From Planctomycetota bacterium (GTDB taxonomy: Bacteria; Planctomycetota; UBA8742; JACQVU01; JANLHZ01), in assembly GCA_024653775.1 (NCBI GenBank), contig JANLHZ010000251.1, forward strand, positions 1 through 42,735: a stretch of DNA of 42,735 bases, given 5' to 3'. Shown in pieces: positions 7,039 to 33,265 of the stretch; the first letter of the stretch is position 1, and the number at the start of each line of letters is the position of its first letter. The notes below the pieces were generated by a model. It saw only the letters and a list, made by a program, of their open reading frames with translations, did no database searches and was not told the DNA's origin. The position numbers and the translations under genes were made by a program.

Positions 7039-7052
7039 AGTTGTTGCCTCGT

Positions 7053-7129
7053 TTTGGAGTGAAACGCGCAAGCGTTTCTTTGAGTACCTTGCGCAAGCGT
7101 TTCTTTGGAGTGAAACGCGCGAGCGTTTC
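7053..7129 (+). repeat. Cluster of three REP hairpins
   Basis: Three related units read on the plus strand. Units 1 and 3 have the head TTTGGAGT and then a perfect 7-bp hairpin, GAAACGC/GCGTTTC, with loop GCAA (stem 7061-7078) or GCGA (stem 7112-7129). Unit 2 (7082-7103) keeps the loop and right arm, but its left arm is ACCTTGC, so it cannot pair fully. The cluster ends right beside the Shine-Dalgarno of the TIG lipoprotein (GAGG, 7047-7050), so the hairpins would be in that gene's mRNA leader if transcription enters from the right. Confidence 0.8.
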
Positions 7130-7164
7130 TTTGGTTTCAAGGCTTGTCTTAAAATTCGTGTCAT

Positions 7165-7734
7165 CTAGAACTCGTCTTCTACCTTGATCTTGTCGAACTT
7201 GAAAGATTTCACCTTCATTTTGAATTCTTGTTCCGCGTTTCGTTCAAACCATCCCGCGGAACAGAACGGATAATCCTCAGCGCGTTTCACGATGCCGTGG
7301 TGAACGGCGTTATTATTCACGTAGCCGATTCTGGGATAGTAGCTCTTTTCGTGCGTCAAACAGGTATCCCAGAACTGAAACCACACCTTTCTTCCCGGCG
7401 TGGCATCTTCAAGATTCAGGGCTCTTGAAGATACTGAATGAAGTCTGCCGACAAGTCTCGAAACTGAGGTCTGACTACTTCCGGAACACGCCACGAGATG
7501 ATAATGATTGCTTAACACCGCCCAGGCTTGAAGTAGCCAGCCTTCTTCATCGAGAATCTCGAACATTTTCGTCTGAACAATCATGAGCTTCCGATTGCTG
7601 TCGATAATGCGCTGTTTGTACATCGTTCCCGCGGTGACCATGTACACGGTGTTCGACGCGAACATGTGCGATGGCGCATGAGGATAGTGTTTAAGGAATT
7701 CGCCGATATTGTCTTGCATCGTTTTTAACAGCAC
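7165..7734 (-). CDS. REP-associated tyrosine transposase (RAYT, Y1/IS200-like family)
   Basis: Single-stranded-DNA nuclease/transposase of the HUH Y1 family. In a 189-residue product starting at the GTG at 7734, the metal-binding HUH motif is SNHYHLVA (His77, His79), preceded by the family-typical WLLQAWAVL. The candidate nucleophile is Tyr138 in GYVNNNAVHHGIV, the place where RAYTs carry Y-x-x-x-N-P-V-type sequences. The N-terminal SNTVYMVTAGT segment also fits the family. The length is normal, with no frameshift, so it is probably active. An ATG at 7717-7719 would give a product five residues shorter; neither start has a Shine-Dalgarno at normal distance. A GGAG lies just before the REP hairpin at 7743-7760, and folding that hairpin would bring it closer to the GTG. 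The stop codon lies 36 bases from the left REP cluster. It probably maintains or mobilises the adjacent REP sequences. Confidence 0.88.
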   Translation of the reverse strand: MLLKTMQDNIGEFLKHYPHAPSHMFASNTVYMVTAGTMYKQRIIDSNRKLMIVQTKMFEILDEEGWLLQAWAVLSNHYHLVACSGSSQTSVSRLVGRLHSVSSRALNLEDATPGRKVWFQFWDTCLTHEKSYYPRIGYVNNNAVHHGIVKRAEDYPFCSAGWFERNAEQEFKMKVKSFKFDKIKVEDEF

Positions 7735-7742
7735 TGTTTATG

Positions 7743-7768
7743 GCAACACTTGCGTGTTGCACTCCAAA
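7743..7768 (-). repeat. REP hairpin on the right flank of the RAYT gene
   Basis: On the minus strand, the head TTTGGAGT is followed by the 7-bp perfect hairpin GCAACAC/GTGTTGC with loop GCAA (stem 7743-7760). It differs from the left copies in two stem positions, and both are compensated in the other arm, which indicates that pairing is selected. It starts a few bases after the stop of the giant gene (7774) and ends just upstream of the RAYT start, so it could also influence mRNA 3' ends. Confidence 0.8.
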
Positions 7769-7773
7769 GTTCA

Positions 7774-10700
7774 TCATCTCGACTCCCTCCTCGCCACAGC
7801 GAAGTAGCGAACGCCGGTGCCGGAGGTAGTCGCGATCACGCCCGAGAGTCCGAAGCGATCGTTTTCGATGAAGGTCAGCCCCGTGATCGGATCTCCCCCG
7901 GCGGATGAGAAGGCATCCGCGTCAGAGAATGTGCCTGCGTCATTCGAGAGCAGCACGGGCGAGTCCTGCCCCGGAATCTGCGCGACGATGTCCGCGTCGC
8001 CGTCGAAGTCGACATCCGCGAGCAGCACGAGCTGCGTGTCGTCCGTGCTGAGGCTTTCCGCGGTGAACGAACCGCTCGAGTTCCGGAGGATCGAAATTCC
8101 AGTGCTCGCGACAGTAACGAGATCGAGGTCGCCGTCGTTATCGACGTCCGCGGCTTTCGCGCCGCGCGCCCCCGCGAGCGTTCCCGCGCCGGTGAACATC
8201 CCGGAGCCGTCGTTCAAAAGCAGCTCGAGACCCGCTGCGTCGCCGTAGACGACATCGAGATCGCCGTCCGAGTCCGCGTCGAAGGCGGTCGCGAACGCCG
8301 CGTTCTGCGCGAGCGCCGGGAGATATGTCGCGGTGACGTCTGTGAAGACGCCGCCGCCTGAGTTGGCGTAAAGTTTCAGCGCGCCCGCCTGCACGAGGAG
8401 CAGATCCTCGTCGCAGTCGCGGTCGATATTTATCGCAATGACCGCGTCAGTGCTCGCGACCGACGCCGGGAGGTTCGCGCCCGTCGCGTCCGCATAGACG
8501 CCGCTCGAGTTCAGCCAAAGCTCGTCCTGCGCGCTCGCAGCGACGAAAATATCGAGGTCGCCGTCGCAGTCGGCGTCGAAGAGAATCGCTTCGTTCGTAG
8601 CCGGAGAAGTCGCCGGAAGCGCGCCTGCCGCAGTTTCGTACACGCCGGCGTTGTCCAGTATCAGCGTGAACGTCCCGCTCGCGGACGCGACGAGAATATC
8701 GACGTCGCCGTCGTTATCCACGTCTCCCGCGGCGATTGCGCTCGCAGTCGCGCCGAATCCCGGAATCGCTGCTGCGTCTTCCTCCCACGACGGTCTGAAG
8801 CTGACGCTGTGGTTTCGCATAACGCGCTCGCCCGCGGGACCTTCGTCGAGGATGTCCGCGTCGGTGTCTCTGTCGAGATCGACCGCGGCAAGGCCCACCC
8901 TGCGCGGAACCTCGACCGCTATCGCTCCCGCCGCGTCGCCGAAGCCCGTGCGTCCCGCGAGGTCGGTCGCGGTCACGCGGATCGTGACGGAATTCGAATC
9001 GATAAGCGAAATCGGATCCCAGGTGTAGGCTCCGTCGTCTGTTTCGCTCAATGCGAAGTCCGTGAAGTTGACGCCGTCCGTAGAGTACGAAAGCGCGACG
9101 ACGTCGGGATTGCCGTCGACGGTGTTCCATGTGATGAGGGTCGTGTCTCCTGGGATGAAGCTCTCGCCGCCCGCGGGCGCCATCACGGTAACGACGGGAT
9201 CGCTCAGATCGAGGATCACGCCGTCCGACGGTGCGCTGAACGTGCTGAAGTTGCCCTCGGTGTCGAACGCCTGCACGCTCAGGAAGTAACTCACGCCCTC
9301 GATTCCCGAACCGAAATCGTAGCTTGGGGATCCGCCCACGTTTTCGAGCGCGAGCACGTCGTCTGCGCCGGGGGTGCTGCCAAGGTTCGCAACGTAGTGA
9401 TCGATCGCGCTGTCCGCGTCGACCGCGTCCGTCCACGAGAAACTGAGCGGGTTCGCCATCTCCGCGACGCCCGCGTCCACCGGAGTTCCCGGAACGCCCG
9501 GCGCGGTGCGATCGGGGATCGCGATCACGATGTTCGGCGACAAGCTTCCGACCGCGCCGAACGCGTCCTTCAGTTGCACCGTGTACGTGACGTTCTGATT
9601 GTCCGCGAGGTCGGCGTCGGTATAGGGAGCTGTACTGACGCTGATAAAGCCCGCGCTCGAATCGCCGCCCGTCCCGCTGACACAGACGATCTCCCACTCC
9701 GTAGCGTCCGCGTGGAGCGGCGATGGCAGTTCGACCTGCGCTCCCTGGGTGTCTTCGGAATTCGGTCCGGAATCGACGTGCGACCCGGCCGGCGCTGTAG
9801 CGAGATTCAGATTGGTGTTGATCCAGTCGATCGCGATCCCGGAGTCGTCGTCGTTGATCTCGCCTCTGCCGGTTCCGCCGGCGTCCTCGATGACGATCGG
9901 CGCGGTGCTGCTCGACGATGCGCTCGTGCGGATGTTGTAAGGTGCGCCGCCTGCGCCATCGAAGCTTAGCGCGGTCCACGTGGTGTCGCTGAACGCGAGG
10001 TTCCCGGTGGTGCCGTCAAGGACGACGTGCGTGCCCGAGTTATTCTGGAAGGCGACGTTGTCGAATCTGTTGATCGTCACCGTCCCGCCCGATGGCGCGA
10101 TATTTATGCCGCCGCCGGAGCCGGAGATCGTGAGTCCGAAGAAGTTGATCGTGCCCTGCTCGACGTTGAACGCGTAGCCGCCGCTTCCGGAGGTCGCTAT
10201 GGCCGACGCTGAGTTGACCGACTTCAGCGTGCCGCCGACGAGTTCGATGGTGCTCGAATCGCTCAGCGCGACTGTCTGTCCGTTCAGATCGAATGTGCCG
10301 TCCTGGATGCTGAGCGTGCCGTCTACTCCGCAGTTCGCAATGACGGTATTCACCTGCGCGGGCGTATTGACGTTCAGATTTCCGAAAGTGACTCCGGGAA
10401 TGTTGTATCCGTTCGTCGTGGAGTTCATGGTGACGGTGCTTCCAGCCACCGCGGTGAAGGAGCCGATGTTTGTCAGCGTCCCCGAAAGCGTGAGCGAGCC
10501 AGCGCCGCTGATTCCGGTGGTCGCGCCTGTCGCGCTAAAGTCGCCATCAACCTGCGCGCTTCCCGCGCTGATGGTGAACGTACCGCCAGACGCGTCGAGC
10601 GCGGCGCTTGCGGTGAGCGAACCGTCCGCGAGATCGAAGTTGCCCGTCAATATCCGCAGATCGCCGCCGACGGTGACGGTCCCGGTGGTGTTCGTGAACG

Positions 10701-13700
10701 AGCCTCCGTCAAGAGTGAAGACGTTCGTAACGCTCACTGTGCCCGAGGTGCATGCGATCGTTCCGCCCGTCGCGTCGAGGCCGGCGCTCGCGGTAAGCGC
10801 GCCGTCGTTCAGCGTGAGCGTTCCTGGGAGCGTGAAATTCCCCGTGCTCGAAAGCGAGCCAGCGCTGCTGAAGTCCGCGGCGCCGGAGATCGAAGTCGTT
10901 CCGCCGACCGTCATCGAGCCGCCGCCCGCGTCGACGTTTCCGGACGCTGTGACGTTATTCGTCACGTTCGCGGCGCCGCCTTCAAGATTCAGATCCCCTG
11001 TGACGCCCAGATCGTTCGTGATAGTGATCGTGCCGCCGCCTGCGTTGACGGTGCCGCCTGTATCGATCGTTACATCTGTAGCGTTCATCGTGGCGGTGCC
11101 CGCGGTGAAATCGAGCGTTCCGGTGATCGTGGTCGCTCCGGTGACGGAAAGCGCGCCGCCGCCGAGGTCGAAGGTGCCGCTGACGCTTAGCGTATCGCCA
11201 AGCGTCGACGAGCCGCCGCCGATATCGAGCGATCCGGAGACGTCCACGGGCAGAGTCGCGTCGCAGTCGCCGCTGGTCGTCGTTACCGCGCCTGTCCCGG
11301 CGATCGTCATTCCGCCGGTCACGCCAATGTTCCCGCCCGTCGTGTCGAGTGTTCCCGTGACAGTCAGATTCCCGCCGACCGTGACGGCGCCAGCATTCGT
11401 GTCTAGGTCGCCGTCCGCGTCGAGATTGCCTGTGACTGCGAGCGTGCCGCCGTTCGTGTTCAGCGTGCCGTCCGCGTCGAGGTTTCCCGTGACGGTGACG
11501 TTCCCGCCTTCCCCGTCGCAGGAACCCGTGAGCGTGAAGTCGTTACCGACGTTCAGCGCCGCGCCGCCCATCGTGAGCGACGTCGGTACGTCGAGATTGT
11601 TCGTCACGTCGATCTGATTGTTGTCGGCGTCGAGCAGAGGTCCGTTCACGAACAGATCGTTCGCGCAGGAAAGCGCGCCCGTGAGCGTGACGTTCATCGC
11701 GGTCGCGTCGATGGTGAGATCGTAGAGCGTCGCGGCGGGCAGCGTGATATTCGAACCCGTGTTTATGAGGGTGGTAGCGCTCGTGCCCGGATCCCACGAC
11801 GCGCCGAAGCTCGTCACGGTTCCGCGCAGCGTCACGGGCACCGCAGCGGTGAAGGTCGCGGTTCCGTTCGTCGCGTCGAGATCGCCCGTCAGGTCGATAA
11901 GACCGCTATTTGCGGTGAGATCTCCGTCGAGGATGAAGTTATCGCTGACGGTGAGATCGCCGTCGAGGATGAACCCGTGCGCGAGCTTCACGCGCAGATC
12001 GACCCCCGCGAGCGGAGCCAGCGTCGTCGCTGTCACCGTGAACGGCGTGTCGTCGGGATCGGGATTCGTGTCGACAACGTCCAGGATGTCCGTAAGCGCG
12101 AGGACGAACGTCGCGTGGTCGCTGCGTAGATGCAACTCGCCGTCAATGAGGTCCATATCGAGCGCGTCCTGACCGATGCGCGTCACCGCGCCGCCGAGCG
12201 CGCCTCCCGGGCCGTCGTCGTAGTAGACCATCATCACCTGGCCGTCGTTGGGCGTCAGTCCGAAGCTGAACGCTCCGGGGCCAGCGTCGCTCGCGACGAC
12301 GATGTCGTCGAGCATCACGCTGATATTCGCCGCAACGTCGCGGGTTCCCGCCACCGTCACGTTGACGACCCAGTCGATGGTAGTGCCCGTGTCGTTATCG
12401 TTCGCTTCGCCCGCGCCGGCGCCGGAGTACGACGCGAGGGTGATCGTGCTCGAGCCTGTGGTTGTCGTGATGTTGAACGGAGCACCGCCTCCGCCGTCGT
12501 AGCTGTGGTTCGTCCAGTTGTCATCGGTGAGGGTGATCCCCATCCCGGCGTCCTCGTCGATCGTTATGTGAGTCGTAGTTGCGTTCGTGAAGTCGATGTC
12601 GTCGAAATTCGTAACGACTATCGCCGCTACGTCCGGCACGAACTTGAATCCTTCCGCGCCAGCGCAACTGAAGCTGAAGTCGGTTACGTCAAGCTCGCCG
12701 CCGTGGATTTCGAAGGTGAAGCCGCCTGCGCCCGCGCCGGTCTTCGTGACCTCGCTCGCCGAGTTACTCGCGGCGAAGATTCCGCCGTTCATCGCGAAAG
12801 TCGCGGTGTCTCCTAGCTGGAGCGAATTGCCATCGCAGTCGAATGTGCCGTCCGTCAGCGTGAAGCTGTTCATCACTTCCGTCGCTCCGGTCAGCGTGGT
12901 CGTCTGCCCGGTGCAGTTGACCTCCACGTCGTAGTAGGTCGAAGGCGCGATCGTCCCGGCGCCGGTCGTGTTCTTGAACTTGACGGTGCCGTTACCGTGG
13001 CTGAAAGTTCCAAGGCTGGTGCAGGTTCCCGTCGAAATAAGGATTCCTGTCGGATCTGTGAAGTTGACTGTGCCCGCGCTCGCGTCGATGTCTCCCGCGA
13101 CGGTGAACGTGGTCGCGTCGAGATTGAACACGCCGCCCAGGGGGGTTTTGAAGTTGCCCGTGATGCTCATTGGCCCAGTTAGTAGCGATGCGCCGGCGGT
13201 GTTCTCGACGTGCAGATGTTTGTACGTCTCCGGATAGATGGTCTGCGCCAAGGTTCCGTCGTAGACGAACGTCGTCGTGCCGGGCGAGAACGTCCCAAGA
13301 TTCGTGACGGTTCCCGCGACGCGGACGAATCCGCCGACGGTGCCGAAGAAGCTGCCCGAAATATCGAGGTCGGTTTCGACGTCGAGCAGTCCGGAGCTGA
13401 TCGTGATGAAGCCGTCGACGTCGCAGAGGTTTGCAACGCTGAGCGTATCGCCGCCGACGTCGAGTAGCGCGCCGGGTTGCACGAGGACGTCTGTCGCGCT
13501 GATGTTCGCGCCGATCGCGCGTGTGCCAGTTGTCATTTCGAGCATGTTGTACGTCGCGCCAAGCCCGGAGGCGTCGATGGCGGGATCGCCTGAGCCGTCG
13601 CCGTCGAATTTGACGGTGCCGGAAAGCGTGATGTTTCCGTTCGAGAAGCCGCTGCCTCCGCCGCCTTCGTTTACGTGGAGCACCCGCGTGGCGTTCAGCG

Positions 13701-16700
13701 TGAACGTAGGCGTCGCGACCGCGGTGCACACGTTCGTGTCGAAATCCATCAGCGGCGTGTCGATCAGGATGCTGCCGCGGACGCTGATCGCGCCGCCAAG
13801 CGTGGCGTCGGTGGAACTCTCGACGATGAGATTGTAATACGTGGTCGGACTGACGGTCTGCGAAGTTCCGTTGTAACGCACGGTGCCGATAAGATCGGAG
13901 ATCGTGCCAAGGCTGACGACGGTGCCGCCCAGGTAGAGCGTGCCCGCGCCGACGAAGTCGGAGGTGCCGCCGGTCGCGTCGTAGACGTTCGTTACGCTGA
14001 CGGTTCCCGTGCTGATCGAGAGAGTTCCAAAGATGGTCGCGTCGCTTTGCACCGTCACGTTTCCGCTTCCGATGCTCATCTCGTGCCCCGCGGCGACGCT
14101 CACGTCGTTCGTGACGCCCAGATCGTACGATGACACGCTCATTGTTCCAGTCGTGACCGTAACGTTGTTGTTCACCACCACGTTCCCCGTCTGAATCGCG
14201 GCGTTTCCGCCGCCGACGTCGACTTCGAGGTTGTAGTAGGTGTCCGCGATTATGAACTGCGTTCCCGCGCGATCGTAGATCACGGTGCCGATAGTATCCG
14301 TCATCGTGCCGAGGCTCGTAGGCGTCATCCCGCCGAGGCGGATCGTCGCGGCTCCGGAAATGGTGAGGTTACCGCCCGTTGCATCCATATCGCCGTCGAC
14401 GTCGAAGACGCCAGTGCTTAGGAGAGCGTCTCCGGGAATCGTTGCGTCGTTCGATACGCTGACTGTGAACGTATCGATGTCGAGGGTCGCGCCTGCGTCG
14501 ACGGTGAGATTCTGGCAGTCGAAGCCCGCTCCCGCGGCGCGGGAACCGCTCAGAATGTGAATGTCCGTCCCGGTGAAGCTCGCGCCGACTCCGAGGGCGG
14601 TAACGTCGCGCACTGGCGGGGGGAGCGTCCCCTGAAGTTCGAGAGTCGCGCCCGTCAGCGTATTCGGCCCCGCGAAGTTGACGAACTGCCCGCTCGATCC
14701 GAACGCGATCGTCGTCCCAGACGCGGCGGTGATCGAGTTGGCGCCGCTGCCGGTGACGTCGTACTGATCTATGTCGAAAGTGCCGGTAGTTATCGTGAGG
14801 TCGCCGTCGATTCCGACCGCGCCCGCCACGGTGACGGTCTGCGCGGTCACGTCGATCTCGACCGCGGGGTACGTTCCCGCCCCCGGCACCGGCATGGTGC
14901 GATCGCTGACTCCGTCGTTAAACTTCACATTCCCCGACCCCGGCGTGAGCGTTCCGATGGCGATAATGTCGTCCTGGAAAACGATGGTCCCGGTTCCCGA
15001 GAACTGGAGCGTTCCAGCGATTGTCGCGGAGCCGCTGCAAGTAGTGTCGCCGTTTCCGATGTCGATGGTTCCCGGAACGCTGAGCGTCGTTACGGTGACG
15101 GTTCCTGCGTCTGTATTTAGCTGCGAGGTGACGGTGCTCGAACCTGTGACGTCAAGATCGTTACCCGCGAGATCGAAGGTTCCGGTGTTGACGTTCAGCG
15201 CGAGCGCGACGTTCGCGTTTCCGCCTGCGCTGACGGTGCCGCCGGAATCGATATCCAGATTCGGATACGTGTCTGCGAATAGGGTCTGCGCGCCGCCTCC
15301 GTCGTAGCTGACGGTTCCCTGCGTGGTCGTCAGCGTTCCGAGGTCGGTAACAGTTCCCGCGAGTTCTAGCCTACCCGCGCCCGAGAACGTAATCGTTCCG
15401 CCCGTCGCGTCGAAAGCGCCGTCCGCGTCGAACGTCCCGGCTGCGATGTCGACGGTGCCCGCGATTGTCGATGTTCCGCTCACCTGCGCGCTACCGCCGC
15501 CGACGAGGAGTTCTTCGCCGTTCGCGACGTCCGCGTTATTCGTTATGGCGAGCGTGACGGTGTTCGTATCCAGGTCGAAGATGCCGGTCGTCACCGTAAG
15601 ATCGTTCAGCACGTTTATCGCGCCCTGCGCCTCCGCGGTGTTGCCGTTTCCGACATTGACCACAAGATCGTAGTAATCGTCCGCGAGCACGTCCATACCC
15701 GCGGAGTTAGCGTAGACGGTCGTTCCCGCAGACGTATCGAGCGTGCCGAGGCTGACCGCGGTTCCGAGCAGCCTGAGCGTACCCGCGCCTGGGAAGTTGA
15801 CGTTTCCGCCCGTCGCGTCGAAGTTCCCGCTGACCGCAATCTCCGCCGCGGCGCTGACGTCGAGGTTTCCCGCGTTAGTAAGCCCGCCGGTCGCGGTAAC
15901 CGCTCCGGAACTGATCGTCAGCGTACCCGCGGTGATCGTCACCGCGCCGAGGTCCATATCCGCGCTGACGGTGCGCGCGCCCGAGGCGAGTTCGAGCGTT
16001 GCGAGAGTCGTCCCGAGGCCGAGCGAGTCGACGTCGATGTCTCCCGCGCCGTCGCCGTCGAGGACGACGTCGCCGTCGATGGTGAACGTGGACATACCGC
16101 TTAACTGCCCGGCGTCGATGAAGTGGATCGTGGAGCCAGCGGTGATTGTGACGTCACCCGTACCAGAGATAGTGACGTCGTCCACATCGAGGGTTCCCGT
16201 GGTCACGAGGAGGTCACCCGTGATTGCGAATCCGGCGCTTACGGTGGCTACCTGCGCCACGTTATCGATCTCGATATGATAGTACGTGAGCGCGGGGAGC
16301 GTCCGCGGGTTCGCGGCGTCGTTGAACTCGATCGTGCCCGTGCCCTCGGTGAAAGTATTGATCGTCGTGAAGGAGTCACCGAGTTCCAGCCGTCCAGCGC
16401 CGAGGAACATCACCGTGCCCGCGGATGCTACGAATGGACCGTTGCAATCGACGGTGCCCGTGTCGATGGTGGCGTCCCCGGTCGCGCTTATAGTTAGAGT
16501 CCCCGCGATGGTCACGCCGGCGCCGTTGACGTTCAGCGAGCCGTCGACGTCCGCGTTACCCGTGACGCCCAGCGTTGTAAACGCGCAGTCGAGAGTTCCC
16601 GCCTGCACCGTGAGATCCCCCGCGGCGGTGGTCGCGCCGCCAAGGGTCGCGGTGCCTCCCGAGTTGACTGCGAGGGAATAATAATCGTCCGCGAAGATAG

Positions 16701-25700: not shown

Positions 25701-28700
25701 CCGCGGTGAGCGATCCGACGTCGGTGACGGTGCTCGAAAGAACGAGGCTCCCCGCACCCGTGAACGTGGTCGTACCCGTGGCGTTCGCGTTGTAATCCCC
25801 GTCGGCGTTGTAAGTCCCCGCGCCGATGGTGAGGTCGCCGCCCGCCTGCACGTCCGTCGCGCCCGCGCAGGTGATCGTCGCGGCGCCAACGTCGGCGGAC
25901 GCGGTGTTCACCACTGTGAGCGCCTGGATGCTGTACGTCGCGCTTCCGAAGGGACGAGTCCCGGAGTTAACGGTGACGTTGGTGTTCGTGAGCGTCGTCC
26001 CTATTCCGAGCGCGTCGATTGCGGTTCCCGGCGCGCCGTTATCGCAAACGAGGTCGCAATCCGTGGTGATTGTGCCCCCGAAACTTGCGAACTTACCCGT
26101 GGAGTCGACGGCGAGCGTCGCGCCGAGGTCGAGTGTGAGATTGTTTCCGCCCGTTACCGTGAACGTCGCGAGATCGAGAGTTCCGGAGATCAGATGGACG
26201 TCGTTACCAGCGGTAATCGCGCCCTGTACCGTCGCGGTCTGCCCGCTGACGTCCACGTCGATATTGTAGTACGTTCCCGCCGCGACGTTCGATGCGCCGG
26301 CCTGATCGTTGTAAATGACTTTTCCCGTGCCCGCGGTGAATCCCGCGAGATCGTCGATACTTCCGGTGACTGTAAGCTGTCCGGATGTGAAGACCAGCGT
26401 TCCACCTGTAAGAGTGAGATCGTCCGCTAGTGTGAGATTCTTATCGTTTACTGTCGCGGTTCCAGCGATGGTTGCGCCGCTCGTAACGGTTGCATGCCCT
26501 CCGGGCGCCCAAGTGTGTCCGGATGGAACGAGCAGCGCGGTAGTTCCTGAGAACGTGATGTTCGGACCTGCGTTACTGTACGGAATGTCTGCGTCTCCGC
26601 CGCTGTCGAACATCGCGACCTCGGTATTCGTGATGTCCGTCGCTCCGGTGTAATCGTTTCTGAAAATGGCGACGTTCGCGCTGAGGTCCATGTTAGTCAG
26701 CGTGGTTGCCGCGGGGGCGTGAGTAACGATGACTCCGTCGCTGGCGCCTCCATCGAGGTAGATGTGGAGCACATCGCCCTCGACGGCAGTCACGACGACG
26801 CTGTAGTTCCCCGTTCCGGCGGAGTCGGTCTGCGGGCCAGCGCCGTTCACGACGACGGTGACGTTTATCCCGGCGGGCGCGGTGCCCGTGATAGTGATGA
26901 CGTTCTGCCAGACGACGGTGATGCCGCCGTCGCTGTCGTTGCTTTCGCCCGCTCCCGCGCCGACGCTGTCCTCCATCGTGATCGTCGCCGCGCCAGCGCC
27001 GGGGTCGGTGGTGACGTTAGTTATCCCCCCGGCGTAACTGTGGTCCTGCCAGGTCGCGTCGGTGAGCGTAAGCCCGCTTGTGTCGTTCACGTAAACGTAG
27101 GTAGCGCCCGCGCCGTTCGTGAAGGTGACGCCGTCGAAATTCGTGATCGTGACCGTCGCGGTGGCTGCGCTGATATTGAAGCCGCTGCCGCCGGCGTAAT
27201 CGAAGTTCAGCGTGGTGACGTCGACGAACCCGCCCGCCACCGTGAACGTGTATCCACCCGTCCCCGCCGCGCTCTTCGTCACCGTCCCCGCCGCGCTCGA
27301 AGCGAAGGTTCCGCCTGTCTGCGAGTACGCCGCCGCGTCGTCGATGCGAAGCGTCTGCGCGTTCAGATCGATGGACCCGCTTTGAAGGTTGAGCGCGGTC
27401 GCGATGTCCGTCGTCCCCGCGAAGCTGACGTCGTTTCCGTTAATCGTGAGCGTGTCGAACGCGAGCGCCGGAAGGCTCGTCGCGCCGCTTCCGGAGAGAA
27501 GGAACGTGCCGCCGCTGTGGTTCAGCGTGCCGATGGAAATCGTCGGCGACGCGCCGGAAAGCTCGATCTGCCCGGCGCTTAGGTCGATCGTCCCCGCCGC
27601 GGCGCTCAGGTCGGTGCCGACGATGATCGACGGACCCGCGAGGCTGACTGTGCTCCCGCCGCTGATCGTGAGCGTGCCGTTAATCGTCGCGGCGCCCGCG
27701 AAGTCGGCCGTCGCGCCTCCGGTCACTGAGAATTCCGTGTACGTCTCGCTCGGAGCCGTCTGCGTCCCCGCCGCGGCGCTGAATTCCACGGTCCCGGTAT
27801 CCGGCGTGAACGTTCCGAGAACGAAAGTCGTCGTTCCCTGCCATTCAAGGGTGCCGCCGCCAAGGGTGGTCGCGAACCCTGTGGCGTCGTAGTCGCCGAC
27901 GACAGTCACCGTCTGTGCGTTCAAATTGAACGTGCCCGCGTCGACGTCGAGGTTGCCGTTAACCGTGATCGCGCCGCCTGCGCTGGTGCCAGCGGCGTTC
28001 TCGAGGTCGAGGTGATGATACGTCTGCGAGTGGACGGTCTGCGCCACGCCTCCGTTATAGCGAACGATGCTGCCCACAGCGGCGCTGAGACTTCCGAGGC
28101 TGGTTACAGTCCCGGAGACGACGAGGACGCCGGCGCCTGTAATGTTGACGTTGCCGCCCGTTGCGTCGATGGCGCCCGTCGCCGTATACGTCCCAGTGGA
28201 AATATTTATCGTCCCGGACGCCACTGTCCCCGCGCTTGCGTTAAATGCCCCCGTGTCGACGTCGAGGGTTCCGCTTACGTCCGCTGCGCCGCTCGATGTG
28301 AACGTGCCGCCATTCATCGTCATCGACGCTCCGAGAGACACGGTCACGCTCGCCGCGCTCGATGTGAACCCCGCCGCGTCGAGAGTCCCGCTCGTCACGG
28401 TGAGCGCTCCCCCTATAGCAAGTCCGGCGGGAAGCGCGCAGCTCTGTCCGCTGACGTCGATATCGAGATTGTTGTACGTTTCATTGTAAACGGTGCTTCC
28501 GGCTGACTGCTTGTTGTAGCGCACCGTCCCGGTTCCCTCGGTGAGCGTGCCGAGGCTTGTAACCGTCCCCGCAAGTTCGAGAACGCCAGCGCCGCTAAAG
28601 GTGACGTTGCCTCCGGTTGCGTTCATCGTTCCATCGACGTTCAGCGTCCCGGCTCCGATGGTCGCTGTTCCCGCGACCGTCAGATTTCCGGACAGATTAA

Positions 28701-31700: not shown

Positions 31701-33033
31701 CCGCCGCGGGCACGTCCTGCGCCGCGCTTCCCTCGAACTTCACTATGCCCGTGCCTCCGCCGACGGTGCCGAGGCTCGTGACGGTGCTCTGAAGGCGGAG
31801 AGTGCCGTTCGCGGTGAACGTGACGTTGCCACCAGTCGCGTCGAAGGTGCTCTGCGCGATCGCCGACCCCGTTCCGATCTGCAGCGTGCCGTCGACGTCC
31901 GCGGTCCCAGCGATCGTTAGCACCTGGGAACCCGCGTCAAGTGTTCCGCCGGAAACTACGATAACGTCGTCAAGATCGACGTCTCCGCCGATTCCCCGTG
32001 TGCCGCCCTCGATCCGCACCGTCGGCGGTATGACCGTCAGCCCCATCGCGTCCAGATCGTTCCCGGTGCCGGAGGCGATGACGGTTCCGTTTATCGTCTG
32101 CGTGCTGTAATTCGTTATCGTGCCCGTGGTTCCGAATTTGAGGAACGCGCTCGCGCCGATCGTAATCGTGTTCGACGACCCCGTCAGCGTGTACGCGTCC
32201 ACGCTCAGGGTCGCGGTCCCGCTGACTGTCAGATTGCCCGCAGTCGATGCGTTTCCGAGAAGCGCCTTCTCCCCTGTGTTAGAGCAGTTCAGAATGCCGT
32301 AGGCGTACCCGCCGATGCTCTGCGCGCCGCCTCCATTGATATTAACGGTGCTTGTCGAATTGAACGTCGTGCTGTCGATCCCACCCGCGAGATTCCCCGT
32401 AAGATTCAGAGTGCCGCCCGCGCCGAGTCTGAAGTCTGTGGTTCCGGATTCCGTGATGTCTCCGTTCACGTTGAGGGTCTGCGCCCCCGCGTTGAAAACG
32501 CCGCCGCTGAGAATCAATCCGTCCATCGTCACTGGACTCGTGCTGATCGTTCTCGTACCGCCGGTTATCTCGACGAGATCGAACCCCGTCTCCGCGTTCG
32601 TGATCGCGCCGCCGCCGGTGAACCTCACCTTGCTTGCCGCGCCTGCGTTGAAAACGCCGCTGTTCGTCCAGTCGCCGCCAACGAGTACCACCGCGCCCGC
32701 CGATAGCGTCAGCGTCCCTCCGGGCGCCCCGGGGTCGATCGTCAGAATCCCGGTAATCGTCAGCGTCGACGCCGGGTTCGAACTGCTCACCGTTACGACT
32801 CCTCCATCGCTGATCGTCATGTTAGCGCACTGCGCAAAGCTCGATATCAGGGGATTCGTCCCTCCGGGATCGATTACGACGTCGTCCGTTATCGCCGGCG
32901 CTACGCCGCCTACCCAGTTAACGCCAAGAGACCAGTCGGTCCCGGCGCCCCCCTGCCAGGTTTTCGTCGCGGCGCTCGAAATCGTGGCGAATGAAACCAG
33001 AGCGCATAGGGCAATAACGAAGCGAATCCTCAT
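7774..33033 (-). CDS. Giant secreted beta-strand-repeat protein (about 8,419 residues) with C-terminal FG-GAP propeller
   Basis: A single open frame of 25.3 kb. The ATG at 33031-33033 is preferred, with AAAGG 8 bases upstream; a GTG nine bases earlier overlaps that site. The Sec signal peptide ends at about ISSA-AT (residue 21). The mature N-terminus has TWQGGAGTDWSLGVNW followed by DDVVIDPGG, a cap motif seen at the start of many bacterial beta-helix surface proteins. About 42 copies of a ~112-residue unit follow (GTLxVxGNTLTVTG ... GTVxYxxxxxxVxAxTYYxLEID). They are broken by four copies of a ~300-residue module near residues 1888, 4871, 6728 and 7578, with a 19-residue repeat block at about 7175-7429. 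The tail has a fibronectin-III-like domain (about 7838-7940), an Ig-like domain (to about 8040) and seven FG-GAP/VCBS motifs (for example DVDNDGDVDIL) to the end. Composition is Thr/Gly/Ala/Val/Ser-rich, acidic and poor in Lys and Cys. There is no LPXTG motif, no autotransporter barrel and no obvious sorting tail. Likely a filamentous surface or released adhesin/scaffold; the exact role is unknown. Confidence 0.9.
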   Translation of the reverse strand: MRIRFVIALCALVSFATISSAATKTWQGGAGTDWSLGVNWVGGVAPAITDDVVIDPGGTNPLISSFAQCANMTISDGGVVTVSSSNPASTLTITGILTIDPGAPGGTLTLSAGAVVLVGGDWTNSGVFNAGAASKVRFTGGGAITNAETGFDLVEITGGTRTISTSPVTMDGLILSGGVFNAGAQTLNVNGDITESGTTDFRLGAGGTLNLTGNLAGGIDSTTFNSTSTVNINGGGAQSIGGYAYGILNCSNTGEKALLGNASTAGNLTVSGTATLSVDAYTLTGSSNTITIGASAFLKFGTTGTITNYSTQTINGTVIASGTGNDLDAMGLTVIPPTVRIEGGTRGIGGDVDLDDVIVVSGGTLDAGSQVLTIAGTADVDGTLQIGTGSAIAQSTFDATGGNVTFTANGTLRLQSTVTSLGTVGGGTGIVKFEGSAAQDVPAADYHHLTIQLTGGNTASLTGAVTVGGDLNVTTGNLAVGGNTLQVTGTSTVAGSTTLSVGAGSITFDGGATVSGVLSIGAGTATTNGTYDASAGSTTFTGAGTIDIAGDTTPQLGTLTTTAGTVKYSLTGSTVELTTYFDLAIDPGGGNTVSLSGGTTAVSGDLSIATGTLSVGNSTLTVAGTATITDTISINTGNVTVTTDVNAGTITFLGAGNFTIASTTVTSLGTLDSSAGTVRFTGGAGTVIPADTYNNIEVAVGAGNGVTLAGNVITNGGFTLTTGDVSTGANDLDVTGTLYVASSQSLSVGSGTVTTTGTSDINGTLTISSGIYDAQGDYDGTGGNTTFSGTGTLKLGAAAPTSVGTLTPGSGEIEYTYASGAVTVLSESYFDLTITAGAANAVNLSGAQTVAGDLTVTSGVLTLNGNTLTVTGTATVTEEVSVGADTFTSDGSLEGAGTVSVTTGTVDCNGDVNFAGTLSMSGAGVFEFSGTVTSIGTISASAGTALFNNTGADITAPAEAYYSLDADTTSRIVSIASGATVGGDLTSTSGSIRLLGNLTVTGNAVVTDTLNVQTFTLTAASLSAGVASTVIVGQTGAFSGIVAPTLSGTVEFVGAGGTAIASVGLGTDFSGATVSVSGGSRTVGGTITVGTLDVAATLTVGADTVTVNGDAAVSGTASISTGTFTIAGDYDATGGLTTFTGAGVLELDGTVTSLGTFTESTGAVKYGNTAAGSSVIAETYYDLRIDVAGQTATAAGNISVTNDLWVIAGTFDFVATIIDVGGAVNNDTAITASTGTMTSTGDLDSTGTFTFTGAGTLELTGSITAFAGLTPGTSTVLYNNQSGASTIANVASYYSIELDVSGQTATAAGALTIGGDLTVTSGAFDLAGNVALTGDVYVNGGTLDIKTFAINGGSAGRDMNIAGAANLEIGDGGVFTNFSTGSHTMTGNIFFDSAGVSTDLDSIGLGTDYGAATLIISTGTRGVGSTVGATHIAVNSNLDVAGDTLNLSGNLTVAGTATIGAGTLNVDGTMNATGGNVTFSGAGVLELAGTVTSLGTLTEGTGTVRYNKQSAGSTVYNETYNNLDIDVSGQSCALPAGLAIGGALTVTSGTLDAAGFTSSAASVTVSLGASMTMNGGTFTSSGAADVSGTLDVDTGAFNASAGTVASGTINISTGTYTATGAIDATGGNVNITGAGVLVVSGTVTSLGSLSAAVGSIVRYNGGVAQTVHSQTYHHLDLENAAGTSAGGAITVNGNLDVDAGTFNLNAQTVTVVGDYDATGFATTLGGGTLEWQGTTTFVLGTFTPDTGTVEFSAAAGTQTAPSETYTEFSVTGGATADFAGAATINGTLTISGGSTVSLAGPSIIVGTDLSAAAGTIDLSAGQIELSGASPTISIGTLNHSGGTFLLSGSGATSLPALAFDTLTINGNDVSFAGTTDIATALNLQSGSIDLNAQTLRIDDAAAYSQTGGTFASSAAGTVTKSAAGTGGYTFTVAGGFVDVTTLNFDYAGGSGFNISAATATVTITNFDGVTFTNGAGATYVYVNDTSGLTLTDATWQDHSYAGGITNVTTDPGAGAATITMEDSVGAGAGESNDSDGGITVVWQNVITITGTAPAGINVTVVVNGAGPQTDSAGTGNYSVVVTAVEGDVLHIYLDGGASDGVIVTHAPAATTLTNMDLSANVAIFRNDYTGATDITNTEVAMFDSGGDADIPYSNAGPNITFSGTTALLVPSGHTWAPGGHATVTSGATIAGTATVNDKNLTLADDLTLTGGTLVFTSGQLTVTGSIDDLAGFTAGTGKVIYNDQAGASNVAAGTYYNIDVDVSGQTATVQGAITAGNDVHLISGTLDLATFTVTGGNNLTLDLGATLAVDSTGKFASFGGTITTDCDLVCDNGAPGTAIDALGIGTTLTNTNVTVNSGTRPFGSATYSIQALTVVNTASADVGAATITCAGATDVQAGGDLTIGAGTYNADGDYNANATGTTTFTGAGSLVLSSTVTDVGSLTAGTGTIEYDGTGQTVDNVSYNILTINQSAGTATLAGAITTADAVNVSAGIFDLGNFTLDVGGDLVVAGGTTITIDTTTVTVTGLTDLDGTATLSTGSLLANGDFDGTNGTVTFTGAGTLELSGDVVDLTNFTAGSSLVKFLNTAAGVTAPAKTYYDVEIDTTNQVVTAASGAAIGNDLDVTTGTFRLGGALAVTNDLTLGGTGVVDTAGFALTGGNNLTLVAGSTLLFDEGGTITGFGGTVDLSTGILEFTDTGGAPDLDTVMGITNFGTAKILITSGSRTAGNAIDCGDLEVAGTLTLGAAESVTAAGDTVITGTVDLGAGALLDTDGAFDCSTGTITMTGAGTVNIADTAPLGFGTLDNTNGTIVYDSAGSPTIVAADYYNVTINCPGQTASFPGATSSIANQLTIAGGTFDLAGETLTVVAFTVSGGAFATLTSGTITVSGNTLISGTLKDDAGTGTLISSATGDFDASGGTITFTGTAILDLRGTFSGLGTFTAGSSEVIFAYAAGATTVPAENFYDLTINTTGQTATTAGAIAAMTGDLIVQDGTFTLGGNLTLAGNVDVQGTSSLDMAGFNITGGGASELDSAAGTTIIMLDASVFSAMDTTPANSTVAGTVQLDETGSGAALNALGLPDPLPALDITTGTRAPGGAISIDNTVDIQVGATLAIGANTVTLNAGASLTNLGTITISTGTLDLDDAADLSAGTLTFSGAGQLHVGGALTGDSLGTFTRATSLVKFDDAAAGANLPAPAGGYYDLEIDATGQTIVLTADTDVENGLTVTDGVLDVSTFELVGAGAVTLTLNAAGEIHVGDSATVAFSGLTLPPTLNGTVQFDGDGTADTDLVSVGLGTDFSNATVVVNTGVRAQGGNLAMVDLTVTNGATLQANTSTLTVSGPATIDGTLYIDSGDINVTGTFTCSATGAIDFAASATGTLIMSGATVNITGTLDGSDGTLEFAYTVGATTVPANNYYSVTINTTGQTSTLAGGVNIAGDLYVQDGTLDIGTASQTVTGNTTVDGTLTISGSGSFDSGGDFTIGATGAVTVTGTGTITLSGTNSNSGSFDPGATSTIVYNDATQATPIMTPDNQYGNLEIDTTAQTATAGAALDIQGNLTVTSGVIELASGATTNVDGTLDATGGSLTLLGTCQLDVNGPLTGLGTFTPNSSTVNFTYSGADSTPGATSFNHVIVNTTNRYIITSAGGATTVAGNLTVTTGGWRMQNDCNLTGGGTIDIAAGHNLDLGSFEVQGAGLTFNLPATAVLYADATADFQNQPAGTQTGDVRFTGTGNLSNLNLADNSGLDIYVDGGNRTFDAVTIAYLYVENTATATVSAGNTLTVTGNVDIVDGGTFATSTGTLTCQGAFDANATGTIDFTGAGFLRLEGATVTSLGTLDTAAGGVVYAYTGGGTSVVADTYFDLEIDVTGQTATVSGAVVVNGTVTVTDGTLSLGAQTWDCPSMDIAAAGTVTLSTGTLTVTGTLNVDGTLEWTDAGVVDVGGDYTAAGVTLFNGDGRLQLGGSNPPTFGTLTTNSQGTVEYDYTAGASTVAVASYHHLEIDVQPGGPPLTTIASLAGSVTITGDLTITSGILDVGNGEVLTGAVASDITISANGALEFTDDATISTFAGTFTLTGEIWCTGATTPTDVEALGFGATIAGTVRVVGNTRTVGAGFTVDTLIIDSGATFATGAFTTQVNTLIDVDGTLDIGTGTLDTDGTIDVDGGTGAVTFSGAGRLEITGTITGDFGTFTAGAGTVVYDDATAGQTVINVSYFGLEIDVTGQTATAAAGPLTVGGTLDVLNGTFDVGGETITVTGATTISDTLSIDTGTYHAAGAFDATAANVTFSGEGRLELETTTVTSLGTLTTTMGLVSYDSAAADQTLLAITYHDLEIDKAGFTGDSGGVTTVSGALTILNGTLDLAANDLSVAETVTIADGATLTASTATIDVGGAYDGNTTGATTFTGAGRLELGAAANTSLGTLTAGSSVVEYDYQGNLAILAATYFDLEIDVQQAGPPLANVASAVTLSMTGSVTVTSGIFEIGNGVTLTGGGGTSNFDVTANGQLNFVDDGVMASFTGTQTFTGEVQLSGSTTPTDVDALGVVSPMTGTLRVVDNTRDIGTAITLDDVVIDAGATLTSGTGTGTVTGSLDVDGTLDIAAGGTIDVNGTYDATGGNTTFSGAGDLNFASTVTSLGTFTAGAGAVHYDGGATQTIVAGAYATLYCANAANCEAGAAFSVTTALHVDAGVLDLQTFTVTTTGNIDANGFGIDLDSGTLEIGLVGAVDLGTLTTGTGTVEYNAAAGTQPIFDPGAPYFNLTKSGAGGVLQLSSNIDVDGQLTVSGGTIDLNGNELICSADIDNSGGTTMLADGVLRIDGVSATVDLGTLDYGVTGTVSYEGSGTTNVQALTYGNLALAGTGTNQLIANTIVDVGVQLSAGTFDLQTFQLQMSAGAAFVQSGGTFFSDSAGAGVTRSGAGSFSFDVNVGNIDITDLDFSYADASGFHVDATGAVDFLNFDGVDFTNGTTTHMLIEINAGSLTFTDNVWDGGSFDGGGGAPFSVTTLAGSTGAANIQNATGVGIGETNDADDPAGTQINWDWNITVSGARDNATLNVSIAHNGVVVGNDAGPGATYSIMINDIAEGDNLTVFYDDNAAGNDAATYIPAHTGDLSNVDLVTDQFAIMESNAYGAANTNLGHYTTADDATDMIVSIAGSDVTFTAGTNVLVDTGMSFTPGGDVTLTGGAMDVDGTITIGAGETVDVGGAFDATGGNVTLTGAGTLELGGGVTSLGTFTESTSTVVYDDQTAGQSVANVTYYNLTFDNDTQVASIGADLTVTNDFTLTTGTVDAVANEVNAGNNFSTAAGTTFKIGDRGAASVVAGGATSVLGDVVFDGDGAGDLDINLAGVGTSFDSLFIDSGSRAAGANLTIATDLDVTGTLDIDTFTVDVTNNATVTGTVSINTGTLNVDGTFDATGGNVTFTGAGLLELAGTVTDIGTLSTTAGTVSYNGAGQTIFADDYYSLAVNSGGTATLGGATTAAGDLTVQAGTLDCAFTTLGVTGNADVDGSLNVNGAGVTIAGTLTISATGDATIDTGTVDCNGPFVASAGTVMFLGAGRLELGDSFTTINTFTEGTGTIEFNDAANPRTLPALTYYHIEIDNVAQVATVSAGFAITGDLLVTTGTLDVDDVTISGTGDVTITAGSTIHFIDAGQLSGMSTFTIDGDVVLDGDGAGDIDVDSLGLGTTLATLELASGARTVSADMDLGAVTITAGTLTISSGAVTATGGLTNAGNLDVSAAAEIAVSGNFDATGGNVNFPGAGTLRLLGTAVSLGTLDTSAGTTVYANSAGMDVLADDYYDLVVNVGNGNTAEAQGAINVLNDLTVTTGIFDLDTNTVTLAITNNADVANGEELLVGGGSAQVSGTSTIAGTVDIAAGTFDADGAFDATGGTITFSGAGRLELAGTVTDLGTLTTTQGTVSYDGGGAQTLFADTYPNLDIDSGGTVSAGGNANVALALNVNTGTFDLAGNDLDVTGSSTVTSQLNTDAGTVTVTTLSVPGTIDIGNGDTTCSGSATIAGTLQFSGTGTIVFQDDIIAIGTLTPGSGNVKFNDGVSDRTMPVPGAGTYPAVEIDVTAQTVTVAGAVGIDGDLTITTGTFDIDQYDVTGSGANSITAASGTTIAFGSSGQFVNFAGPNTLTGATLELQGTLPPPVRDVTALGVGASFTGTDIHILSGSRAAGAGFDCQNLTVDAGATLDIDTFTVSVSNDATIPGDALLSTGVFDVDGDMDATGGNLTISGAATIRLGGMTPTSLGTMTDTIGTVIYDRAGTQFIIADTYYNLEVDVGGGNAAIQTGNVVVNNNVTVTTGTMSVSSYDLGVTNDVSVAAGHEMSIGSGNVTVQSDATIFGTLSISTGTVSVTNVYDATGGTSDFVGAGTLYLGGTVVSLGTISDLIGTVRYNGTSQTVSPTTYYNLIVESSTDATLGGAISVRGSILIDTPLMDFDTNVCTAVATPTFTLNATRVLHVNEGGGGSGFSNGNITLSGTVKFDGDGSGDPAIDASGLGATYNMLEMTTGTRAIGANISATDVLVQPGALLDVGGDTLSVANLCDVDGFITISSGLLDVETDLDISGSFFGTVGGFVRVAGTVTNLGTFSPGTTTFVYDGTLAQTIYPETYKHLHVENTAGASLLTGPMSITGNFKTPLGGVFNLDATTFTVAGDIDASAGTVNFTDPTGILISTGTCTSLGTFSHGNGTVKFKNTTGAGTIAPSTYYDVEVNCTGQTTTLTGATEVMNSFTLTDGTFDCDGNSLQLGDTATFAMNGGIFAASNSASEVTKTGAGAGGFTFEIHGGELDVTDFSFSCAGAEGFKFVPDVAAIVVTNFDDIDFTNATTTHITIDEDAGMGITLTDDNWTNHSYDGGGGAPFNITTTTGSSTITLASYSGAGAGEANDNDTGTTIDWVVNVTVAGTRDVAANISVMLDDIVVASDAGPGAFSFGLTPNDGQVMMVYYDDGPGGALGGAVTRIGQDALDMDLIDGELHLRSDHATFVLALTDILDVVDTNPDPDDTPFTVTATTLAPLAGVDLRVKLAHGFILDGDLTVSDNFILDGDLTANSGLIDLTGDLDATNGTATFTAAVPVTLRGTVTSFGASWDPGTSATTLINTGSNITLPAATLYDLTIDATAMNVTLTGALSCANDLFVNGPLLDADNNQIDVTNNLDVPTSLTMGGAALNVGNDFTLTGSCDGEGGNVTVTGNLDADGTLNTNGGTLAVTGNLDADGDLDTNAGAVTVGGNLTVTGTLDTTGGNIGVTGGMTIAGTGAVTTTSGDCDATLPVDVSGSLDIGGGSSTLGDTLSVSGTFDLGGGALSVTGATTITGTLDFTAGTATMNATDVTIDTGGTVNAGGGTITITNDLGVTGDLNLEGGAANVTNNVTASGNVDAGGGSMTVGGTTSISGAADFSSAGSLSSTGNFTLPGTLTLNDGALTASAGLDATGGTIACTSGTVSVTNVFTLDGGSFTNTTGTVTVGGDLRILTGNFDLADGSLTASAALDASGGTFTISAGSAQVDGDFSATGATTGISGAGSLTLSGTLTNIGSFTAVAGSTVTMNSTTNGYNIPGVTFGNLNVNTPAQVNTVIANCGVDGTLSIQDGTFDLNGQTVALSDSSTIELVGGTLKSVNSASAIATSGSGGYAFNVEQGTINFFGLTISGSGGGINIAPSGGTVTINRFDNVAFQNNSGTHVVLDGTTGNLAFSDTTWTALSFDGAGGAPYNIRTSASSSSTAPIVIEDAGGTGRGEINDDDSGIAIDWINTNLNLATAPAGSHVDSGPNSEDTQGAQVELPSPLHADATEWEIVCVSGTGGDSSAGFISVSTAPYTDADLADNQNVTYTVQLKDAFGAVGSLSPNIVIAIPDRTAPGVPGTPVDAGVAEMANPLSFSWTDAVDADSAIDHYVANLGSTPGADDVLALENVGGSPSYDFGSGIEGVSYFLSVQAFDTEGNFSTFSAPSDGVILDLSDPVVTVMAPAGGESFIPGDTTLITWNTVDGNPDVVALSYSTDGVNFTDFALSETDDGAYTWDPISLIDSNSVTIRVTATDLAGRTGFGDAAGAIAVEVPRRVGLAAVDLDRDTDADILDEGPAGERVMRNHSVSFRPSWEEDAAAIPGFGATASAIAAGDVDNDGDVDILVASASGTFTLILDNAGVYETAAGALPATSPATNEAILFDADCDGDLDIFVAASAQDELWLNSSGVYADATGANLPASVASTDAVIAINIDRDCDEDLLLVQAGALKLYANSGGGVFTDVTATYLPALAQNAAFATAFDADSDGDLDVVYGDAAGLELLLNDGSGMFTGAGTLAGARGAKAADVDNDGDLDLVTVASTGISILRNSSGSFTAESLSTDDTQLVLLADVDFDGDADIVAQIPGQDSPVLLSNDAGTFSDADAFSSAGGDPITGLTFIENDRFGLSGVIATTSGTGVRYFAVARRESR
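9800..10305 (-). other. Module 4 of the giant protein, truncated
   Basis: Residues about 7578-7745. It has the opening (TIELVGGTLKSVNSASAIA), RFDNVAFQNNSGTH, SFDGAGGAPYNI and GRGEINDDDSGIAIDW, but the Ig-like second half is replaced by a different segment leading into the fibronectin-III-like domain. It thus marks the boundary between the repeat stalk and the C-terminal head. Confidence 0.6.
10745..11508 (-). repeat. Block of about 13 strict 19-residue (57-bp) repeats in the giant gene
   Basis: Residues about 7175-7429 repeat with a 19-residue period, for example GTLAVTGNLDADGDLDTNA followed by GAVTVGGNLTVTGTLDTTG. Most copies are exactly 19 residues, with a few of 20-22. The pattern V-x-V-x-G-x-(L/T)-x-(V/A)-x-G-x-L-(D)-x-x-x-G is what one expects for a single beta-solenoid rung per repeat. 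It is distinct from the ~112-residue unit of the rest of the protein. Confidence 0.75.
11930..12855 (-). other. Module 3 of the giant protein
   Basis: Residues about 6728-7035. Landmarks: FAMNGGIFAASNSASEVTK, NFDDIDFTNATTTH, SYDGGGGAPFNITT, GAGEANDNDTGTTIDW, and GQVMMVYYDDG. The closing part (VDLRVKLAHGF) differs from the PGG closure of modules 1 and 2. Confidence 0.6.
17500..18425 (-). other. Module 2 of the giant protein
   Basis: Residues about 4871-5177. Matching landmarks: FVQSGGTFFSDSAGAGVTR, NFDGVDFTNGTTTH, SFDGGGGAPFSVTT, GIGETNDADD, then INDIAEGDNLTVFYDDN and SFTPGGDVTLTGG. This copy is full length. Confidence 0.65.
26415..27375 (-). other. Module 1 of the giant protein (first ~300-residue interruption)
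   Basis: Residues about 1888-2205. It opens with LNAQTLRIDDAAAYSQTGG, passes through NFDGVTFTNG, a Trp-containing TLTDATWQDHSYAGG, GAGESNDSDGG and an Ig-like stretch with EGDVLHIYLDGG, and closes with a PGGHATVTSG segment that re-enters the strand array. The order of motifs is the same in the later copies. Confidence 0.65.
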
Positions 33034-33265
33034 GAGACTCACCTTTCAATTTTTCACTGTGAATTTGAGTTTATTTTCGAGGTCGAGGCCTAATTCTCAG
33101 GCGGCACAAACTAGAATGAACCGCCGGACAATTATCTATGCCTCTTTTGCACCAAAGCTACACCATGTTCTCGGTATGCCCAAATGAAATTGGGCCCGCA
33201 ATCGTAATTGTGCGCAGTATCACAGAATGCAACGTGAATATTTACACTCCCAGCGACGCGCGAGC
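33034..33265. other. Intergenic region upstream of the giant gene
   Basis: 232 bases between the solenoid protein and the giant gene. It holds a small perfect hairpin GCCCAA-N6-TTGGGC (33178-33195) without a T tail and a looser GGCGG/CCGCC pairing (33100-33125). AT-rich stretches could include a promoter (GATAAT on the minus strand near 33134), but I find no well-spaced -35. The length and AT richness suggest that the giant gene has its own promoter here. Confidence 0.4.

Follow-up and report, generated by a model that had tools for sequence, protein, structure and literature searches.

A 25,260-nt gene of a Planctomycetota bacterium encoding a predicted beta-solenoid fibre with an FG-GAP propeller head

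The gene at positions 7774-33033 encodes a secreted protein of 8,419 amino acids. Judging from domain scans and structural models, its most probable shape is a stiff fibre of about 0.15 micrometre that carries a calcium-binding propeller at one end, the tip. We consider it probable that this protein is an exported rod-like adhesive or matrix-scaffold fibre in which the propeller acts as the binding head. The window, that is the whole stretch of 42,735 nucleotides analysed, is the entire contig C19 of a draft genome of 331 contigs and contains 0 N bases. The gene and the parts distinguished in its product are as follows:

7774..33033, minus strand: giant gene, ATG to stop, 8,419 aa; open frame, uniform GC3, Shine-Dalgarno AAAGGTGAG ahead of the ATG
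32962..33033, minus strand: Sec/SPI-type signal peptide (MRIRFVIALCALVSFATISSA-A), residues 1-24, by direct reading of the sequence
32854..32976, minus strand: N-terminal 'NW' cap (W..G..TDW...NW..G..P..DDVVI), residues 20-60; motif shared with relatives and with paralogues of the same genome
27370..32853, minus strand: solenoid block 1, residues 61-1888, by the unit HMM
26908..27357, minus strand: block-closing cap 1, residues 1893-2042, by alignment of the four copies and HMM matches in relatives
26704..26907, minus strand: Ig-like linker 1, residues 2043-2110 (approximate bounds), by the insert alignment; putative fold
18394..26703, minus strand: solenoid block 2, residues 2111-4880, by the unit HMM
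17944..18393, minus strand: block-closing cap 2, residues 4881-5030, by the four-copy alignment and HMM matches in relatives
17704..17943, minus strand: Ig-like linker 2, residues 5031-5110 (approximate bounds), by the insert alignment; putative fold
12820..17703, minus strand: solenoid block 3, residues 5111-6738, by the unit HMM; residues 5190-5620 modelled, pLDDT 90.8
12370..12819, minus strand: block-closing cap 3, residues 6739-6888, by the four-copy alignment and HMM matches in relatives
12124..12369, minus strand: Ig-like linker 3, residues 6889-6970 (approximate bounds), by the insert alignment; putative fold
10273..12123, minus strand: solenoid block 4, residues 6971-7587, by the unit HMM, partly weak (12-19 bits in mid-block)
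9823..10272, minus strand: block-closing cap 4, residues 7588-7737, by the four-copy alignment and HMM matches in relatives
8899..9822, minus strand: fn3-like and Ig-like linker domains, residues 7738-8045; fn3 sub-threshold, low-confidence model
7777..8898, minus strand: FG-GAP beta-propeller head, to the C-terminus; PF13517, seven motifs, model and Foldseek

The initial annotation had described an uninterrupted frame of 25 kb preceded by a plausible Shine-Dalgarno, and this description holds. From the ATG at 33033 to the stop at 7774 on the minus strand, the gene spans 25,260 nt and encodes 8,419 residues plus the stop without any internal stop codon. Mechanical prediction places the ORF at 7774-33042 (minus strand), open across 8,422 codons from a GTG start at 33042; since this GTG falls inside the Shine-Dalgarno AAAGGTGAG, which lies at normal spacing ahead of the ATG at 33033, the latter is almost certainly the real start. 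The longest stop-free run in 20 base shuffles of the gene was 352 codons, and GC3 lies between 0.76 and 0.82 in each slice of 1,000 codons. A collapse or expansion of arrays during assembly is unlikely because no exact direct repeats of 30 nt or more exist within the gene and TRF detected there only short arrays, with units of 17-24 nt. An assembly artefact is thus an unlikely origin for the gene.

For 23 of the repeat units, aligned as protein with the codons mapped back onto the alignment, inter-unit identity was 0.575 at codon position 1 and 0.594 at position 2 (0.34 and 0.26 by chance), and 0.404 at fourfold third positions (0.33 by chance). Since the first two positions are well above chance and the fourfold third positions close to it, the units have long been kept at the protein level; the copies are old, and their silent sites are almost saturated while their protein sequences still resemble one another. 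This pattern, with conserved first and second positions and nearly randomised fourfold sites, is the best evidence for selection on the reading frame, which had previously been argued from the intact frame itself. The draft assembly of 331 contigs could speak for a non-functional gene, either an assembly chimera or a decaying repeat array. Against this stand the lack of long exact repeats able to cause mis-joins, the uniform GC3, the purifying pattern between units and the matching plan in other families, and we give such an origin hardly any credence.

The stalk is built from a unit of about 89 residues, defined by an iterated HMM that found 52 stretches above 20 bits in the protein (38 of them above 50 bits), whereas the reversed protein and 18 other reversed frames gave at most 14.4 bits; the repeat stalk noticed earlier is therefore real. 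Four modules with a G-E-x-N-D-x-D…(I/V)-x-W end, finishing at residues 2042, 5030, 6888 and 7737, are read from the sequence as closing caps that partition the stalk into blocks, four in all. According to the insert alignment, a putative Ig-like stretch follows each of the first three caps before the next block begins. The recurring insert modules of the initial annotation are real, but they turn out to be largely these block-closing caps, common to giants elsewhere in the phylum. In the composition of the stalk, T, G and A are abundant and basic residues scarce (H 0.6%, K 0.4%, R 0.8%). Searches of stalk pieces against Pfam and NCBIfam returned only sub-threshold names of solenoid type (Fil_haemagg, PIC solenoid, G8), neither Pfam (2025) nor NCBIfam (2026) gave a family for the unit or the caps at the cut-offs applied, and a search of the PDB by sequence gave nothing convincing for the protein.

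Structure prediction, one of the checks that had been proposed, returned an all-beta solenoid. The AlphaFold model of residues 5190-5620, for which the alignment consisted only of other stretches of the same protein, had a mean pLDDT of 90.8 and a pTM of 0.87 and was made nearly entirely of short strands, with a strand periodicity of 7 and 20 residues. This agrees with the autocorrelation of the stalk sequence at 6-7, 13 and 19-21 residues, and points to a beta-solenoid whose turns take about 20 residues each, with a predicted fold and a putative register. Autotransporter beta-helices (TibA, Ag43, EspC) came first in Foldseek against the PDB; as these matches were not significant (best E 0.04), we predict the fold class and claim no homology. 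Further weak matches were to RsaA (not significant) and to PL6 alginate lyases, and Foldseek against viral models gave a few beta-helix matches that were significant but of low TM, which are read as fold class only. Beta-solenoids rise 0.48 nm per turn, so that some 7,250 residues, coiled with 20-25 to the turn, would form a rod of 139-174 nm.

At the C-terminal end, the fn3 match (E 0.026) is below the cut-off, and in the model of the head region the linkers are mostly under pLDDT 50 and most of the propeller is at about 80-94. The head itself matches PF13517 (E 2.1e-20) and contains seven DxDxDG-like calcium loops, at residues 8052, 8104, 8153, about 8204, 8252, 8296 and 8340, and the C-terminus of the protein directly follows the propeller. 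The calcium-binding head suggested earlier is supported by this match and these motifs, and the structure prediction that had been called for gave a propeller, with Foldseek matches to CRTAC1 (E 1.1e-12) and to the PVL lectin (E 1.1e-9; fungal GlcNAc lectins about 1e-9). We therefore describe it as a predicted seven-bladed calcium-binding FG-GAP propeller of the integrin-alpha, CRTAC1 and fungal GlcNAc-lectin type. By the published definition of fibrillar adhesins (PMC8286594), repeated stalk domains are present, with a unit that is not a listed Pfam stalk family, and the FG-GAP propeller is the sole candidate for a known adhesive domain; that paper nowhere uses the term 'FG-GAP'. FG-GAP propellers are very common in secreted proteins and alone are no proof of adhesion.

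The signal peptide claimed at the outset is, by inspection, of Sec type and covers residues 1-24, and it is followed by the NW cap (W26…W…NW). Inspection revealed no acceptable lipobox at Cys10. Most paralogues of the same genome carry lipobox-like N-termini, also by inspection (C60, C8, both C129, C107, C281, C234 and the neighbour at 451-7164). These lipoprotein-like sister giants would for the most part give the class an anchor, though its 8,419-residue member has none; as this member is without the lipobox that most of its sisters have, it is suggested to be released or held in a matrix rather than tethered.

Other means of export or retention were also sought. No TPS domain was matched by Pfam in residues 1-5000 or 1-378, and Pfam and NCBIfam gave no RTX or SLH domains and no LPXTG tail in the protein. 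The T9SS C-terminal sorting domain TIGR04183 is absent from it and was not found in the genome, where the control gave signal. An autotransporter beta-barrel is likewise absent from the C-terminus, which ends in the FG-GAP propeller. The earlier statement that the protein has neither barrel nor sorting tail agrees with these scans and with the models. The search of the genome for ShlB, the TpsB partner, had no match, and its control also matched nowhere. Neither a secretion partner nor an anchor was found for the protein, nor any known tail or partner gene that would account for its passage across, or retention at, the outer membrane.

The giant is large, not unique, among the giant surface-type proteins of this bacterium and its phylum. 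Its unit occurs in further frames of the same genome (5,896, 3,854, 3,521, 3,191, 3,069 and 2,775 aa) and FG-GAP repeats in others (5,378, 3,889, 3,267, 2,440, 2,237 and 2,172 aa), and open frames of this general type, about 2,000-5,900 residues long, number at least a dozen in the genome besides the giant. Using the unit HMM with a cut-off of E 1e-6, we detected the unit in 19 of 392 sampled genomes of the phylum, this one included; unit-bearing frames measure 8,478, 5,321 and 4,840 aa in genome G159 and 4,488 aa in G288. The size had been considered rare, and while the protein is indeed large, frames in the phylum reach 12,929 residues. Two such open frames were observed in G036, one of 12,929 aa (C31 near 159782) that matches the N-terminal region of the giant and another of 11,954 aa (C46 near 35332) that matches the unit.

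A search for relatives with the same plan had also been recommended, and the unit, the caps and the plan do recur in giants of other families. The whole-insert HMM gave no match in relatives; cut at the I-x-W motif and run with filters off, it detected closing caps in G159, G288, G094 and G281, with scores reaching 40 bits (4.7 at most for reversed sequences). These caps are usually followed, without a gap, by the NW cap that opens the next block, which argues that the blocks are real building units. The NW motif stands after the signal peptide and at the opening of later blocks in the giants of G159, and opens blocks in G288, G094, G281 and the paralogues of the same genome. Heads vary, with FG-GAP in the giant, Peptidase C25 in G281 and a weak propeller match in G094. 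The G281 frame (L103, contig C264) has 2,125 aa, the same units and caps and a C-terminal Peptidase C25 of the gingipain family (E 5.2e-68). Most unit-bearing giants of the own genome (L086, L087, L089/L090, L091, L092, L094) have a common conserved C-terminus with the motifs WYDRL, VWAVTD, LYAFYCPN, GDDG, GYP.RI.DA and SLESGRT.A.RIK, for which the copies tested had no Pfam match. There is about an even chance, in our estimation, that all these proteins form an undescribed, phylum-wide class of modular giant fibres, with solenoid blocks opened by NW and closed by NDxD...IxW, and with heads and N-terminal anchoring (lipobox or free) swapped between members. The swapped heads would be FG-GAP, the unnamed conserved or propeller-like ends of the own paralogues and of G159 and G094, and the C25 peptidase of G281.

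Regarding the surroundings of the gene, a REP-associated tyrosine transposase (Y1_Tnp; NF047646, 79.2 bits against a cut-off of 80) lies at 7165-7734. On either side of it, at 7053-7133 and 7745-7769, are REP-like palindromes TTTGGAGTGMAACRCGCRAGYGTT of opposite orientation, one of them just past the stop of the giant. This palindrome has 18 copies in the genome with up to 3 mismatches (0 in the backwards control). The 2,237-aa ORF at 451-7164 probably starts at ATG 7038 (MNKFSILAMILTLSALALAAC, lipobox), as the 42 codons upstream include translated REP palindromes. Its product, with TIG, Big_5 and FG-GAP domains, is a large surface-type lipoprotein and a second FG-GAP-ended protein adjoining the giant. 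Just upstream of the giant, positions 33266-35281 encode a 671-aa protein; three other copies of it, diverged and either partial or full, occur in the genome, and 30 relatives have none. Synteny based on this neighbour was uninformative, since it belongs to a genome-specific paralogue family. The draft genome, for which 2.8% contamination is stated, also contains two quite different RecA genes (C132:13382-14341 and C256:18275-19222), which could be two genes or the sign of a foreign contig. A RecA tree did not assign the genome to a phylum, and the DUF1559 signature had no match in it, with a control that was silent as well.

In the reading that we favour, the protein would enter the periplasm via Sec with cleavage of its signal peptide, a step read from sequence alone, and would then be exported beyond the outer membrane. 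Some 7,250 residues would coil into a beta-solenoid of four blocks, each with its closing cap, and the fn3/Ig-like domains would connect this rod to the C-terminal propeller. The most likely ligand of the latter is a glycan or protein carried by the matrix, by particles or by adjacent cells, so that the molecule may serve as a long-reach adhesive or matrix-scaffold fibre, released or held in the matrix rather than tethered. The very long surface fibre proposed initially fits the domain scans and models as a secreted fibre with stalk and head, and its surface location is plausible.

The main rival, which we hold to be unlikely, is a structural coat or S-layer/matrix protein whose solenoids pack side by side and whose propeller attaches to the cell's own surface polysaccharide instead of reaching outwards. 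Since no membrane or wall anchor is present, the propeller could be a retention domain. Several giants are made by the one genome, and for Omnitrophota a role of giants as 'coats' has been suggested (PMC10066038). The weak fold matches include RsaA, an S-layer protein of solved structure; this match is not significant, however, and SLH and RTX domains are missing. We find it considerably less probable that the solenoid is catalytic, resembling pectate or alginate lyases, and attacks polysaccharides or cell walls. Giants of predatory bacteria have been assigned such roles, as have giants of other PVC bacteria (PMC12057145), in each case as a proposal, and the PL6 matches and the C25 peptidase of the related G281 giant could be cited in favour, but no catalytic Pfam or NCBIfam domain was found in the protein and its T/G/A-rich stalk has few basic residues. 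A contact-dependent toxin stick of FHA/CdiA type, using two-partner secretion and bearing a C-terminal effector, has in its favour a solenoid stalk with an FHA-like turn length of about 19-20 residues on a giant secreted protein. TPS and toxin domains are absent, the C-terminus is a propeller and the genome gave no ShlB match (nor did its control), and we regard this as highly improbable. The adhesive or matrix-scaffold fibre is our preferred interpretation.

Giant genes above 20 kb have been documented in Planctomycetota, including Fuerstia marisgermanicae (PMC5177795), in Omnitrophota (PMC10066038) and in a survey of huge proteins (PMC11573180), and the giants of bacteria fall mainly into two groups, surface proteins and NRPS/PKS (PMC5177795, PMC11573180); the present one has no NRPS/PKS domain. 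The class is defined by a single ORF above 5 kb (20 kb for the largest), here 25,260 nt, by an export signal, here the Sec-type peptide recognised by inspection, and by a surface location, which is plausible here. What is known is thus the broad kind of giant surface protein, and what is new is the unit with its caps, which have no Pfam or NCBIfam family. The gene adds a very large and clearly selected example to the poorly understood giants of uncultured bacteria. Moreover, the unit, the opening cap and the closing cap are modules by which related giants can be recognised and aligned, and their natural boundaries allow giants to be split into expressible blocks.

Like the bacterial 'giant genes' of Reva and Tuemmler, it is longer than 20 kb, secreted, repeat-rich, one of several per genome and without a clear enzyme; it differs in that its unit and caps are without a Pfam family. 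Giant1-5 of Apilactobacillus kunkeei have a Sec signal peptide, 3,000-8,000 aa, diverged internal repeats and loose cell attachment, and Giant3 is predicted to be an elongated rod of about 0.2 micrometre (PMC12863079). Sec signal, size, an elongated rod of similar predicted length, diverged repeats and the presence of a beta-solenoid are common to both. In A. kunkeei, however, the solenoid forms an N-terminal domain, and alpha-helices or beta-domains make up the rod, whereas here the solenoid would be the rod and the propeller the head. Filamentous haemagglutinin (FHA) and CdiA, of the two-partner secretion type, resemble the giant in its predicted long beta-solenoid rod, with turns of about 19-20 residues in FHA; the giant differs from them by having no TPS domain, another C-terminus and no TpsB partner found (in a search whose control was silent too). 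The passengers of the autotransporters Ag43, TibA and EspC are the nearest solved beta-helix folds by Foldseek, though not significantly so, and in contrast to them the giant has no translocator barrel and is many times longer. For the head only, the bacterial integrin-type FG-GAP propellers (PMC3192720), CRTAC1 and the Psathyrella velutina lectin provide the likeness, with seven DxDxDG-like loops and a significant fold match; the propeller of the giant, with its predicted ligand binding, differs from them in riding on a giant solenoid.
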